Positions 2,571-40,104 of a stretch of 64,000 nucleotides of DNA are shown in pieces. Location: positions 29,902-93,901 of the forward strand of contig JABDCA010000005.1 in the NCBI GenBank assembly GCA_013288345.1, in the 5' to 3' direction. How positions within the stretch are numbered: the stretch's first letter is position 1; each line of letters opens with the position of its first letter. The DNA is from Bacteroidota bacterium (GTDB lineage Bacteria > Bacteroidota > Bacteroidia > JABEUT01). The notes beneath the pieces are model-generated. The model searched no databases and was not told the DNA's origin. It saw only the letters and a list, made by a program, of their open reading frames with translations. Made by a program: the position numbers and the translations under genes.

Positions 2571-5500
2571 ATGAAAAAAAATTACCGAAACTCAGCACTT
2601 GCACTTGTTGCATTATTCTGTTTTGCATTTAACATCAATAGTAATGCCCAGGTAATACGTACCGTGGCAGGAGATGGTACCCCAGGCTATCAAAGTGATG
2701 GAGTTCCTGCAACCACTACTGCTCTAAATGCTCCTTTTGGAGTAGCTGTTGATAAAGCCGGCAATATTTTTATTGCTGACCAATATAACCAGAGAATTCG
2801 CGAAGTAGTAAGATCTACCGGCGACATGATATCTTTAGTAGGTAATGGAAGCGCAAGTTTTGGTGGTGATGGGTTCACAAGTTCGTCTGTTTCATTAAAC
2901 TACCCAACAGGTATAGCATTAGATACTGCGGGTAATATATACATAACAGATGTGAACAACTACCGTGTACGGGAAATAGAAAAAACCACCGGAATCATTA
3001 ACACTATAGCAGGTAATGGAGCCTCAGCATATGGTAGCAGTGGTATACCTGCTTCATCAGCAGGCATGTCTCCTCAAGGTATTGCATTAGATGATTCAGG
3101 CAACATTTATTTAACAGATGCTACTGCCCAAATGGTCTATAAAATTTATGCTTCAAACGGCAATTTTGTAAGTATTGCAGGTGATGATACTGCAGGTTTC
3201 GCAGGTGATAATGGCCCTGCAACCGCTGCCAAACTTAATGGCCCTGTTGGATTATCGCTTGATAAGAAGAGGAATATTTATATAGCTGATCAGAACAACA
3301 ATCGCATACGAATGATTAACCAAAATACTGGTATCATAACTACAATTGCCGGAACTGGTAGTACGAATGTAGATTATACTGTCACTAGCAGCAAAGCTGA
3401 TACAAGCGCTATTTACGCTCCTTATGCAGTTGCTGTGGATACTATAACAGGTAATATTTATATAACCGACCCGAATAATGTGGTACGTGTTATAAACGTA
3501 GCAACCGGAATTATTAAACCATTTGCAGGTATTGCAGGTAATGGTAGCTTCGGAGGTGACGGTATGGATGCAACTATTGCTAACTTAGATAGCCCAATGG
3601 GCCTGGCAATTGATGATTCTGATAATGTTTATATGACCGATCAGGGGAATGAAAGAATTCGTGAAATTTTCACAAATGGCCCGGCTATTACCTCTGAACC
3701 TGTCCCTTCCTATGCTTGTAATAGCTCAAGCGCTTCATTTGGTATTACAGCAACAGGTGTAGGTGTTACTTATCAGTGGCTCGTAGATTCGAACTATTCA
3801 GGAAAGTGGGATACACTTAAGAATGCAGGCGTTTATTCAGGTGCCACTACTGATTCATTAAAGATCAGTGTAGTTAATGCTATGAATACTACTGAGTATA
3901 TGTGTATACTAAATAATGGTTTTGATGTTTCGACGGCTGTGTATTTAAATATAAATTCATACCCGCCTATAGCACAATTTAATGGCCTTGTTGATAGTAT
4001 ATGTTCAGGTGCTCAAACCACTATTACTGCTTCTCTCTATTCAGGAGGTGGAGGATACGTTATTAACCCTCACGATCAAAAGAAACCTGTAGTAGTGGGG
4101 CCTACTACCAGTTATCTATGGAATACCGGAGACAGTACTTCCACACTAACAGTAAGCCCACTTGTAACTACTACGTATAGCTTAGCGCTATATCAAAATG
4201 GCTGTACAACTGATACTACCGTAACCGTATACGTTGACAGAGATAAAGTACAAGGTACAGCCTTCCCATCATCTTCTGTTTGCGCCGGTAATAATGTTAC
4301 CGTGTTTGGCAGCGGTGGAACAGGATCTTATTCATGGAGCGGTGGAACTGGCAATGTAAGTAATGGTGTGAGTTTTTCACCTGCTGCTACAGCTACATAT
4401 ACTGTAACCGGTGTTGATGCAATGGGCTGTATATTGCAGAACACTTTTCCTTTAACAGTAAATACACCACCATTTATTATTATAACATCAAACCTTAAGG
4501 ACACCATGTGTGCCGGAGATGTATTATCCCTAACAGCAAGTGGGGCTTCAACCTATAGCTGGAGTAATGGTATCACCAATGGTGTAGGCTTCACTCCTTC
4601 GGCTTCGGCTGTTTACTATGTTACTGGTACCGATGCTAATGGCTGTTCGGCTTCTGCTTCGCTTACCGAAGTGGTTAACCCATTGCCTATTGTTACCGGT
4701 ACTGCTTCTCCGGATGCTGTTTGCCAGGGCGCTTCACTCTCTCTTTCCGGTAATGGCGCTGCTTCTTATACATGGTCGGGTGGGGTTACTAATGGGATTG
4801 CTTTTGTTCCTGCTTCTTCGGGCTCTTATTCTGTTACCGGTAAAGATAAAAATGGTTGTCTCGGTTCGGCTGCTGTTAATATTACGGTTAATCCTTTACC
4901 GGTTATATCGGCTTCTGCTTTCCCTTCGGCTGTCCTTTGTCAGGGCTCTTCACTCGCTCTCTTTGGGGCCGGTGGTGCTTCTTACTCATGGTCCAATGGG
5001 GTGAACAACGGGGTTTCTTTTACTCCTCCTGCTTCTACTACTTATACCGTTACTGGTATCGATGCTAATGGTTGTACCGCTTCTGCTAACATTGCTGTTA
5101 CGGTGCATCATAAGGTGGTTCCTACTCTTACTTCTAATAACACTACTTGTGGTTTAAAGAATGGTTCTGCTTCGGCTTCGGGTTCTAATGGTATTGCTCC
5201 TTATACGTATTCATGGAGTACCGTGCCGGCTTCTTCAACTTCTTTCATCGATAGCCTTGCTCCGGGTACTTATGTGGTTACGGTGTCTGATTCGGCTAAC
5301 TGTGCTTCTTCTTCGGCCGTTTCTATTGGTTCTTCTACGGCTCCTATTCTTTCGGTTTCTACTACTAACAGCAACTGTGGCTTTTTAGGTACCGGTTCTG
5401 CTTCGGTGGCTGTTACAGGGGGCAATGCTCCTTACCACTATATGTGGAACAATGGCGATACGCTGGCTTCGAACTATAACTTAAGGGCTGCTACTTATAT

Positions 5501-7100
5501 TATTACGGTTACTGATGTGAATGGCTGTTCTTCTTTTGCTCCGGCTATTGTATCTAACCTTAACGGCCCTAAGATAACTACTCAGTCTATTGTTAATGTA
5601 AAGTGTAATGGCTCGCCTACGGGTGCTATTACGGTGGCCGTGTCGGGTGGTAATCCTCCTTATCATTACAACTGGTCCAACGGTTCTTCTTCTTCGGCTA
5701 TCTCGGCTCTCTTTGCTGGGCCTTACCAGCTGGTGGTGTTCGATGCTGACAGTTGTACCAGTGTGGAGAGCTTTGTAATTACCCAGCCTAATGCTTTATC
5801 GGTTTCTTCGGCTTCGGTGAAGGCTGACTGTGGTGTTTCTAATGGCTCTGCTTCGGTGGCTGTTACCGGTGGCCTTGCTCCTTATTCGTATTCTTGGAAC
5901 AATGGGGTGTCGGCTAATGTGAATGCTGCTGTTCCGGCGGGTGTTTATTATGTTACCATTATCGATGCCAATGGTTGTGCTGATTCTTCTCTTATTGCAG
6001 TCTCTAATAAAACGGGGCCTTCGCTGGCTTTATCGCTGTCGGCTAATGCTAGCTGTGGCAGTGGTGGTTTAATTTCTGTAGTAGCTACTGGTGGTTCTTT
6101 ACCTTATGCTTATCATTGGAGCAATGGTGTTACGGCTTCTTCTGTATCTAATGTGCCTGCCGGTAATTATTATGTTACGGTTACTGATGGCAAGGGTTGT
6201 GTGGGTTCTGCTGACACTTCGGTATCTGAAGTTGTTCCTGCTGCACTTTCGCTTTGTATGGTTACCGTGGATCCTTTAGTGGGTAAGCACAACTATATTA
6301 TATGGGATAAGAGTTTGGCTAAAAAAATATCGCATTACAATATTTACAAGGAAAGTACTTCGGCGGGTGTTTACTTTAAAATTGATTCTGTTCCTTTTGA
6401 CAGTGCAGGTATTTATGTCGATCTGCTTTCGGATGCTACGGTGCGTAGCTGGAGATACAAAATATCGCAGGTCGATTCTTGCGGTAACGAGTCTTCGCTG
6501 AGCCCTGCTCACAAGACCATGCACCTTACCGTGAACCAGGGTGTGGGTCATAATATTAACCTGATATGGGATAATTACGAGGGCCTCAACTTCTCTACTT
6601 ATTATGTCTACAGGGATACTATTGCTTCTAAGTTTACCCTTATCGATTCTATTCCTAACAACATATTTACGTATACCGATAATAAGTTCCCTTATTCTAC
6701 CAAGCCTTTCTTATACCGTATCGGTATCAGTAATCCTGGTGGTTGTGCTCCGGCTATTGAGGCTATTAACTACAATGCTTCTAAGTCGAACACGGGTAAC
6801 TTTACCTTTAACCCTACTGCAGGTATTGCTGCTATCGATGCGGCCAATGCCGGTTTGTCGGTCTTCCCTAATCCTAACAACGGCGTCTTTACTTTTGCTC
6901 TCAATACCGACAAGGGTTCTAAAGAACTTAATCTGTCTGTTGTTAATACGCTGGGTCAGGTGGTTATCTCTCATGTTTACGAGGATGTCCCTGCTGCCTT
7001 TACTAAAACTCTTGACCTCTCTTCTTTAGCTAAAGGGGTGTATTTCCTTAAGCTGCAATCCGATAACGCAACATTATACAACAAGGTTGTGATTCAGTAA
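2571..7100 (+). CDS. Giant NHL-propeller / SprB-repeat surface protein with T9SS sorting domain
   Basis: 1,509 aa. An upstream in-frame ATG exists at 2532, but the ATG at 2571 begins a clean signal peptide (MKKNYRNSALALVALF, cleavage near NSNA/Q27), so I start here. Residues about 30-380 form NHL repeats ('GIALD..GNIYITD.NN.R.R' several times), a beta-propeller. An Ig-like region follows (about 385-870), with 'SYSWSNG' strands, then five SprB repeats (about 870-1250), an FN3-like region, and a type A T9SS sorting module with 'FPNPNNGVF'. It is expected to be exported and anchored on the surface, probably for binding; the ligand is unknown. Residues 668-1499 are the same as in the preceding gene. 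Codon choice changes inside the gene near 4572: Ala and Gly codons are mixed before it and mostly gct/ggt after it. Confidence 0.9.
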   Translation: MKKNYRNSALALVALFCFAFNINSNAQVIRTVAGDGTPGYQSDGVPATTTALNAPFGVAVDKAGNIFIADQYNQRIREVVRSTGDMISLVGNGSASFGGDGFTSSSVSLNYPTGIALDTAGNIYITDVNNYRVREIEKTTGIINTIAGNGASAYGSSGIPASSAGMSPQGIALDDSGNIYLTDATAQMVYKIYASNGNFVSIAGDDTAGFAGDNGPATAAKLNGPVGLSLDKKRNIYIADQNNNRIRMINQNTGIITTIAGTGSTNVDYTVTSSKADTSAIYAPYAVAVDTITGNIYITDPNNVVRVINVATGIIKPFAGIAGNGSFGGDGMDATIANLDSPMGLAIDDSDNVYMTDQGNERIREIFTNGPAITSEPVPSYACNSSSASFGITATGVGVTYQWLVDSNYSGKWDTLKNAGVYSGATTDSLKISVVNAMNTTEYMCILNNGFDVSTAVYLNINSYPPIAQFNGLVDSICSGAQTTITASLYSGGGGYVINPHDQKKPVVVGPTTSYLWNTGDSTSTLTVSPLVTTTYSLALYQNGCTTDTTVTVYVDRDKVQGTAFPSSSVCAGNNVTVFGSGGTGSYSWSGGTGNVSNGVSFSPAATATYTVTGVDAMGCILQNTFPLTVNTPPFIIITSNLKDTMCAGDVLSLTASGASTYSWSNGITNGVGFTPSASAVYYVTGTDANGCSASASLTEVVNPLPIVTGTASPDAVCQGASLSLSGNGAASYTWSGGVTNGIAFVPASSGSYSVTGKDKNGCLGSAAVNITVNPLPVISASAFPSAVLCQGSSLALFGAGGASYSWSNGVNNGVSFTPPASTTYTVTGIDANGCTASANIAVTVHHKVVPTLTSNNTTCGLKNGSASASGSNGIAPYTYSWSTVPASSTSFIDSLAPGTYVVTVSDSANCASSSAVSIGSSTAPILSVSTTNSNCGFLGTGSASVAVTGGNAPYHYMWNNGDTLASNYNLRAATYIITVTDVNGCSSFAPAIVSNLNGPKITTQSIVNVKCNGSPTGAITVAVSGGNPPYHYNWSNGSSSSAISALFAGPYQLVVFDADSCTSVESFVITQPNALSVSSASVKADCGVSNGSASVAVTGGLAPYSYSWNNGVSANVNAAVPAGVYYVTIIDANGCADSSLIAVSNKTGPSLALSLSANASCGSGGLISVVATGGSLPYAYHWSNGVTASSVSNVPAGNYYVTVTDGKGCVGSADTSVSEVVPAALSLCMVTVDPLVGKHNYIIWDKSLAKKISHYNIYKESTSAGVYFKIDSVPFDSAGIYVDLLSDATVRSWRYKISQVDSCGNESSLSPAHKTMHLTVNQGVGHNINLIWDNYEGLNFSTYYVYRDTIASKFTLIDSIPNNIFTYTDNKFPYSTKPFLYRIGISNPGGCAPAIEAINYNASKSNTGNFTFNPTAGIAAIDAANAGLSVFPNPNNGVFTFALNTDKGSKELNLSVVNTLGQVVISHVYEDVPAAFTKTLDLSSLAKGVYFLKLQSDNATLYNKVVIQ
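4572..7066 (+). repeat. Long direct repeat, copy 2
   Basis: Second copy of the 2,495-bp segment at 1-2495. It covers the second Ig-like part, the SprB repeats, the FN3-like part and almost all of the sorting domain. The last 12 codons after it encode nearly the same peptide (one N to A change), yet ten of these twelve codons differ between the copies. Confidence 0.95.
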
Positions 7101-38475: not shown

Positions 38476-38657
38476 ATGACCGAAAGTGAACTTTTGGATA
38501 GAATAAAGAATAACCCATCTGAGTTTTCGGAATTTTTTACAATATACTACAAACCAATTTTTGGGTATATACTCCGACGGACCGGAAATTTTGACAATAC
38601 AGCAGATATTGCAGCAGACACTTTCTTTAAAGCATTTAAAAATATTAACTCCTTTTC
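38476..38657 (+). pseudogene. 5' half of an ECF sigma-factor gene
   Basis: Encodes about 60 residues of sigma region 2: 'FFTIYYKPIFGYILRRTG', 'DIAADTFFKAFKNINSFS'. The frame then leaves the family and stops at 38694. The 3' half, with the same 'KAFKNINSFS' overlap, lies at 39696-40104 on the other strand. Joining 38657 to 40071 (minus strand) keeps frame and gives 185 aa. The N-terminus and promoter look intact. Confidence 0.85.
38625..38657 (+). repeat. 33-bp inverted repeat, left copy
   Basis: Begins ctttaaagcattt and ends ctccttttc. It is the exact reverse complement of 40072-40104. The match ends cleanly on both sides (t/a at the outer edge, g/t at the inner edge). It codes for 'FKAFKNINSFS' of the sigma factor. 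Confidence 0.92.
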
Positions 38658-39012
38658 GCTGAAATTTGGAGTGAACCGCCATGTCGTAAATTAAAACTTC
38701 AGAGTATTCAGCATAGTACATAGGTAGCTCAAATGCTGTAAAGCCACCAATAACTTCACCATTACAAATTGCCACAAAAACTATAAAATGGGTATTGTTG
38801 AGCAGTTTTTCTAAATAGGCTTTTTTAACCGGCGTGTAGTTTCCCATTTCAAAAACCTCATAAAACAGCTTATTTAGGTTTTCAAAAAGCAACACATCTT
38901 TTTTTCCAAGGCGTTTTATTCGAACAGCGTTACTCATACTAACGACATAGATTGATATATCTAAAAATACAAAAGATATTTCAACCAAAGTAATAAATGC
39001 AGTATGATTGAA

Positions 39013-39246
39013 CTATTTGTCTTTGGTACCTCTCATGGTTAAATAAGCAATTAAGGAATAGACAGCTCCAATAATCAGTAAGCTGAAGACAAAATTCATA
39101 AGGATATCACTGACTGAGTGGCCTTCGTTATTGATTTGGATGAATGTATACACTGAGTAAGCAATTCCGCATAATAAAATCAACCAGCCAATTATGGATA
39201 CAGGGATAAAAAATATTCCATTTCGTTTGAACCAAGGTAAGCGCAT
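39013..39246 (-). CDS. Small two-helix membrane protein
   Basis: 77 aa from the ATG at 39246 (longer frame to 39318 overlaps the neighbour). 'MRLPWFKRNGIFFIPVSIIG' begins with a basic tail, followed by two strong hydrophobic segments ('GWLILLCGIAYSVY', 'FVFSLLIIGAVYSLIAYL') and a charged end 'RGTKDK'. No known family. It lies inside the inverted segment, downstream of the sigma 3' half and the 139-aa membrane gene, in the same direction. Confidence 0.6.
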   Translation of the reverse strand: MRLPWFKRNGIFFIPVSIIGWLILLCGIAYSVYTFIQINNEGHSVSDILMNFVFSLLIIGAVYSLIAYLTMRGTKDK

Positions 39247-39257
39247 ACTAGTATAAT

Positions 39258-39677
39258 TTAAAGTGAATAGATTATTAAAATAAGAATTGAAAAAAGTATT
39301 ATCAAAACATTGAACCATACTTCCTTGAACAAACTAATGTTAATCGAGTTTCCCAATGCATTGTATACTTTCCGTATGCTGAAGAAATTTAGAATAATGA
39401 AGACTGTGGGAACAATTAGAAATAATAGTATGGATAAATATTTTTCTTTACTACTGAATTCATGAATGCTTGTGATAAGTGTTGCTTGGGGCATAAAAAG
39501 AGTTTTCATGCAAAAGGCAGCAATTACATATAATGGAATACTTAACCACCACCAGCTTAACGCTGAGTTGTCTTTTGCTTTTATAATGGTATTTGCTAAC
39601 ATATCCTGATGTTTTAATTCCGAAATTTCGGGTTTGGCCATTTTAAGTAAGCTGTCTTCAAAATTTTGCAGTTCCAT
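39258..39677 (-). CDS. Membrane protein beside the split sigma factor
   Basis: 139 aa from the ATG at 39677. A soluble N-terminus of about 45 residues ('MELQNFEDSLLKMAKPEISE', 'HQDMLANTIIKAKDNSA') is followed by four hydrophobic segments. A short cytosolic head before a membrane part, placed right after an ECF sigma gene, is the layout of many anti-sigma factors, but no anti-sigma domain is recognised. It starts 18 bases after the sigma 3' half ends. Conditional role only. Confidence 0.6.
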   Translation of the reverse strand: MELQNFEDSLLKMAKPEISELKHQDMLANTIIKAKDNSALSWWWLSIPLYVIAAFCMKTLFMPQATLITSIHEFSSKEKYLSILLFLIVPTVFIILNFFSIRKVYNALGNSINISLFKEVWFNVLIILFSILILIIYSL

Positions 39678-39695
39678 AATCAATAATGCTAATAG

Positions 39696-40104
39696 TTAAA
39701 TTTGGTTGCATTTTTGACGAAGTTTTTCCATCCCTCTTGATAGTAAGGATTTTAATGTTCCTTCGTTAATGCTCAGTATTTCAGCAATTTCCTTGTTGTC
39801 TTTCCCTTCAAAATACCTCAACGATATTACTTCCTGATATTTTATCGAAAGCGTTTTCAGTTCTTTAAGAACCGTTAAAAACTGTTCATGCTTTTGCAGT
39901 TCTAATTCCATTTCTTTTTTATCTTCCAAAAGAAGGCTCTGAAAATGGGTATTGTTTTCAAAATCTATTTTCTCAAATAATGAATTATGTTTTTGTTGGT
40001 GTCTGAAATACTGATTCACTTCGTTAGTAGCAATTCGGTAAAGCCAAACTTTAACTGAAATGCCCCGATAAGAAAAGGAGTTAATATTTTTAAATGCTTT
40101 AAAG
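39696..40104 (-). pseudogene. 3' half of the ECF sigma-factor gene
   Basis: In frame from the inverted repeat: 'FKAFKNINSFSYRGISVKVW', then 'LYRIATNEVNQYFRHQ', a linker, and the region 4 helix-turn-helix 'NKEIAEILSINEGTLKSLLS' followed by 'RGMEKLRQK'. A TAA stop lies just upstream at 40108, so no full protein can be made in the present orientation; an internal GTG at 40019 would give 107 aa without region 2. The left half lies at 38476. Confidence 0.85.
40072..40104 (-). repeat. 33-bp inverted repeat, right copy
   Basis: Exact reverse complement of 38625-38657. 1,414 bases lie between the two copies. Everything between them reads in the minus direction. Confidence 0.92.

Follow-up and report, generated by a model that had tools for sequence, protein, structure and literature searches.

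An ECF sigma-factor gene in the genome of a Bacteroidota bacterium lies in two halves on opposite strands, with a segment of 1.4 kb between perfect inverted repeats separating them, which raises the question of whether the cell turns this gene on and off by DNA inversion, whether the segment was turned over only once, or whether the arrangement arose in the DNA before it was sequenced. A preliminary description of the locus had listed an on/off inversion, a fixed inversion with duplication of one end, and an assembly chimera as explanations and had given the first of them the headline. Based on the surrounding 64,000 nucleotides (the window; GC content of 39.1%), on a comparison with relatives, and on the rest of the assembly, we agree that the segment is inverted and find that both the fixed inversion and the chimera fit, but no support for the reversible switch. 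The 1.4-kb flip, which breaks the sigma gene and an acetyltransferase gene, looks like a one-off inversion, most likely an amplification chimera.

The split sigma gene and its orthologues

Comparison of the two arms (Table 1) verified that they are exact reverse complements (33 nt, 100% identity) with a spacer of 1414 nt, just as they had been described. For a perfect 33-bp inverted repeat in the window, the chance expectation is about 1e-10 pairs. The contig is continuous across the inversion and free of Ns, only one orientation is present in the assembly, and the 33-mer occurs at only two places, the arms themselves, in the 2.99-Mb genome. Reversal of positions 38658-40071 resulted in a single open sigma frame of 185 codons, and the rejoined protein revealed the domains Sigma70_r2 (PF04542) and Sigma70_r4_2 (PF08281), with TIGR02937 also above its cut-off. 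It contains sigma-70 regions 2 and 4, lacks region 3, and is about 185 aa long, which is the make-up of an ECF sigma factor; both the in-frame joining and the two regions had been recognized correctly. The upstream element was likewise found where it had been reported: TACTTTTG begins 39 nt upstream of the sigma ATG, leaving 31 nt in between, and one relative (L029) carries a TAnnTTTG element at an equal distance upstream of its sigma gene.

Table 1. Features of the inverted locus (positions refer to the window)
Feature	Position	Strand	Remark
5' part of the ECF sigma gene (region 2), original orientation	38476..38657	+	orthologues in L028, L029, L030, L031
Left arm of the 33-bp inverted repeat	38625..38657	+	native sigma coding sequence
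Inverted segment, with the N part of GNAT, both membrane-protein ORFs, and the 3' part of sigma, all minus	38658..40071	-	relatives' gene order sigma-ORF-ORF co-directional
N-terminal part of the GNAT acetyltransferase (MSNAV...HSKFQRKG), cut at the inversion breakpoint	38658..38937	-	adjoins left arm
Small membrane protein ORF, third gene of the sigma operon; 101 aa from listed start	39013..39318	-	
Conserved 141-aa membrane protein ORF after sigma; possible anti-sigma factor	39258..39683	-	
3' part of the sigma gene (region 4); its minus-strand reading takes in the right arm	39696..40104	-	
Right arm of the 33-bp inverted repeat	40072..40104	-	sigma sequence replacing GNAT core (net loss of 77 nt)
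GNAT gene, C-terminal end (FYKSTGGKAEKVVHFNYTFTK stop), beyond the inverted segment	40105..40170	+	

A comparison with close relatives, as proposed in the preliminary description, was performed with L030 (same genus), L028, L029, and Mucilaginibacter arboris (L031). All four carried an unsplit sigma orthologue with about 70% identity, followed in the same direction by a membrane protein gene (about 141–150 aa) and a smaller one (75–100 aa), and these downstream genes correspond to the ORFs that lie between the arms in the window, there on the opposite strand. Since sigma is unsplit in these relatives and shares an operon with its two downstream neighbors, the orientation in the window is the derived, inverted one. 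Apart from that, the conserved operon consists of the ECF sigma gene, the membrane protein of 141–150 aa, for which no Pfam family was detected above cut-off, and the small membrane protein, whose length, counted from the listed start, is 75–79 aa in three of the four relatives. The sigma factor and the larger membrane protein may form a sigma/anti-sigma pair.

The arm itself encodes KAFKNINSFS of the sigma factor and aligns with KAYTHINNFT in L004, and an inverted partner of the repeat region was not found in any of the four relatives. The 33 bp are ordinary native sigma coding sequence and not a recombination site; a conserved recombination site was rejected on the grounds of 0/4 relatives with a partner and of the uniqueness of the 33-mer in the genome.

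A broken acetyltransferase gene at the far breakpoint

Though the inversion that splits sigma had been seen before, a second broken gene at its other end had been overlooked, i.e., a GNAT acetyltransferase gene with an internal deletion. Its C-terminal end (ALKFYKSTGGKAEKVVHFNYTFTK) starts within the right arm and continues past it. The gene is whole in four orthologues of the same genus, all of which have 32 codons from QRK (or QRT) to AL/V.FY, and at this stretch the window contains 19 nt of sigma sequence instead. With net 77 nt of the core missing and the 33-bp sigma piece in place, GNAT is out of frame, and its reading after reversal ends ...QRKGVNIFKCFKVLQIDRR stop. The lost part presumably comes after the start of the acetyl-CoA-binding motif. 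Flipping would hence repair sigma but not GNAT, which is dead in both orientations. In NCBIfam, the nearest family is AAC(3)-I, for which the relatives scored 110–115 bits against a cut-off of 200, so that no resistance function is claimed for this gene.

This second gene bears directly on the reading of the locus as a reversible intragenic inverton, in which site-specific recombination at the 33-bp repeats would turn sigma on and off. Repeats of invertons typically measure 10–40 nt (PMC11892184), a range into which the perfect 33-nt arms fall, flipping opens the sigma gene, and tyrosine and serine recombinases are encoded elsewhere in the genome; beyond the length of the arms and the reopened sigma frame, however, nothing speaks for a switch. 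An invertase close by is common for invertons, if not obligatory, and the window contains none: as previously noted, it harbors no recombinase gene, all matches to the profiles PF00589 and PF00239 lie outside it or on other contigs, the closest one being separated from the right arm by about 41 kb, and a local invertase was therefore rejected. Nor would reversal be lossless, as GNAT stays broken whichever way the segment lies. Since GNAT is dead in both states and the repeat is neither conserved nor found a second time beyond its two arms, the on/off switch is unsupported, and the junctions are moreover of the template-switch type (see below). A true switch is unlikely; we regard the inverton as very improbable, and an inversion within the ECF sigma coding sequence that toggles the whole sigma regulon by means of a trans-acting recombinase encoded at another place in the genome is hardly to be expected. 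Two further candidates were a switch alternating between two functional genes, which the loss of GNAT function in either state speaks against and which was rejected, and an intact second allele, which was looked for elsewhere in the bin and not found.

The locus is like invertons (Jiang 2019 and, for intragenic ones, Chanin 2024, as cited in PMC11868660) in having 33-bp inverted repeats that flank a segment which, once reversed, yields an open gene. It differs from them by the lack of a nearby recombinase, by a repeat that is gene sequence unconserved as a repeat, by a second gene that is dead in both states, and by the single orientation in the assembly.

Anatomy of the junctions

The arm has GAAAAGGAGTT at the left junction, where the equivalent codons of the GNAT orthologue of G001 read GAAAAGGAGTA. 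This orthologue, which stands in the comparison for the strain's own ancestral GNAT, carries GAAAAGGAGT, an identity of 10 nt with the left junction. On the right side, AATGCTTTAAAG of the arm stands against CATGCTTTGAAG in the GNAT gene of G005, a similar sequence that may represent the second short homology. Taken together, 33 nt duplicated on one side, net 77 nt lost on the other, and short homology resemble the footprint of two polymerase template switches and not that of a recombinase site. A new strand copying sigma would leave its template after ...AACTCCTTTTC and anneal to its match GAAAAGGAGT on the other strand, within the downstream GNAT gene. From there it would be extended in the reverse direction across the operon and the 33 bp of sigma already copied, until a second hop at CTTTAAAG returned it to the 3' end of GNAT. 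As the outcome of these two hops, 1.4 kb would be inverted, 33 bp of sigma duplicated as an inverted repeat, and the GNAT core deleted.

The same anatomy, perfect arms included, would also result from two steps in the cell, in which a 33-bp sigma piece replaced the GNAT core and a later homologous or replicative exchange between the arms inverted the segment, repeatable at low frequency. This would require two events where one suffices, and 33 bp are short for homologous recombination, so that we rate it as the least probable of all readings.

A double template switch, or an equivalent short-repeat inversion with duplication and deletion, may on the other hand have occurred as a single event in the living cell, killing both sigma and GNAT. 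In cells, inverted repeats that are not identical are known to acquire perfect arms and an inverted spacer through template switching (PMC8604942), and the present locus is like those cases in that perfect arms would have arisen together with a spacer inversion by two polymerase hops. It differs from them in its spacer of 1.4 kb, the cellular spacer inversions comprising only a few bp, and in the net loss of 77 nt. The continuity of the contig at the site and the fact that an intact second copy of sigma or GNAT was not found in the bin are in favor of an event in the cell. Since the halves of both genes are undecayed, i.e., free of stops and other decay, such an event would need to be very recent, and the signs of multiple displacement amplification (MDA) in the same assembly make an origin in vitro cheaper. 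We therefore hold the one-off event in the cell to be possible, if tentatively so.

Signs of amplification in the assembly

In our preferred reading, a single double template switch gave rise to the split sigma gene, most likely in the course of MDA prior to sequencing (probability of roughly 0.58). The sequences show the anatomy, the ancestral order of the genes, and the deletion in GNAT, from which the switching and its occurrence in the tube are inferred. Of the chimeras formed by phi29 polymerase in MDA, 85% are inverted, most are joined at 2–21 nt of complementarity, and deletions accompany them (Lasken and Stockwell 2007, PMC1855051); MDA molecules with multiple inversions occur as well (PMC13265396). 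At the locus, the inverted segments are likewise less than 10 kb apart (1.4 kb), a deletion lies between them (net 77 nt of GNAT compared with the four orthologues), and the left junction displays 10 nt of identity with the GNAT gene of G001, with a similar short stretch also likely at the right one. A further likeness to these chimeras is that inverted duplicates are present at three gaps of the assembly under study. The difference is that the published chimeras have one junction and two segments, while here two linked junctions close a full inversion.

Scaffold gaps with edges overlapping by exactly 95 bp were identified in the window's genome (L044, L063, L073, and L081) and in its sibling G005 (L159), and such exact overlaps are an assembler k-mer signature. 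G005 is attributed to a REPLI-g study (PMC7065516), in which MDA-amplified pools of sorted cells were assembled by SPAdes with the options -sc -k 25,55,95; its unclassified Bacteroidetes had an average GC content of 39.97% and 2.4 Mb. In addition, three N-gaps of the window's genome were found to carry inverted duplicates of 44–77 bp of sequence 0.7–6.3 kb distant, as expected for MDA chimeras at contig edges. The genome thus looks MDA-amplified, and on the basis of the 95-bp overlaps and the gap-side duplicates, an in-vitro origin of the inversion is the likeliest, followed by a one-off inversion in the cell. Some observations argue against an MDA chimera: the final contig must have retained both of two coupled hops, the site has no N-gap, a like footprint is known from living cells (PMC8604942), and in 2.27 Mb of the genome no further case of this sort was seen that is interior and single-copy.

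Template switching by a polymerase in amplified DNA can thus mimic an intragenic phase-variation switch, with perfect repeats and a gene that is open after reversal. It is exposed by determining which gene the far end of the inversion cuts, together with a comparison with relatives, and surveys of invertons in single-cell or mini-metagenome assemblies need this check.

Other repeats in the genome

Further long inverted repeats in the genome were judged by the length and copy number of their arms and, in some cases, by the genes around them. Arms in multiple copies mark several of them as repeat families, and three are situated at N-gaps. A 50-bp inverted duplicate of a neighboring gene (L075:512-561 and 1296-1345, on the window's own contig C5) lies where an ABC-permease-like gene ends, beside a gap of 10 Ns, and resembles an inverted amplification chimera, and two others, of 77 bp (L141:1721-1797/5275-5351) and 44 bp (L147:2605-2648/8904-8947), are located directly at N-gaps. 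One pair flanks a putative IS1595-like transposase gene, and another, with 29-bp arms in three copies, surrounds an ORF of 433 codons.

Within the window, positions 1-2495 and 4572-7066 form a near-perfect direct repeat of 2495 bp, which covers the C-terminal part of two adjacent large secreted-type proteins and stems either from a tandem duplication of recent date or from the assembly. Furthermore, a family of short palindromic repeats (GCCACGACCTTTAGGTCGTGGC) was detected in L098 (2799-3484, 7801-7828, and 11521-11654), with about 8 copies in the stretches read, and a second repeat family, GTCATTGCGAGGAACGAAGCAATCTC, in L108 and L150.
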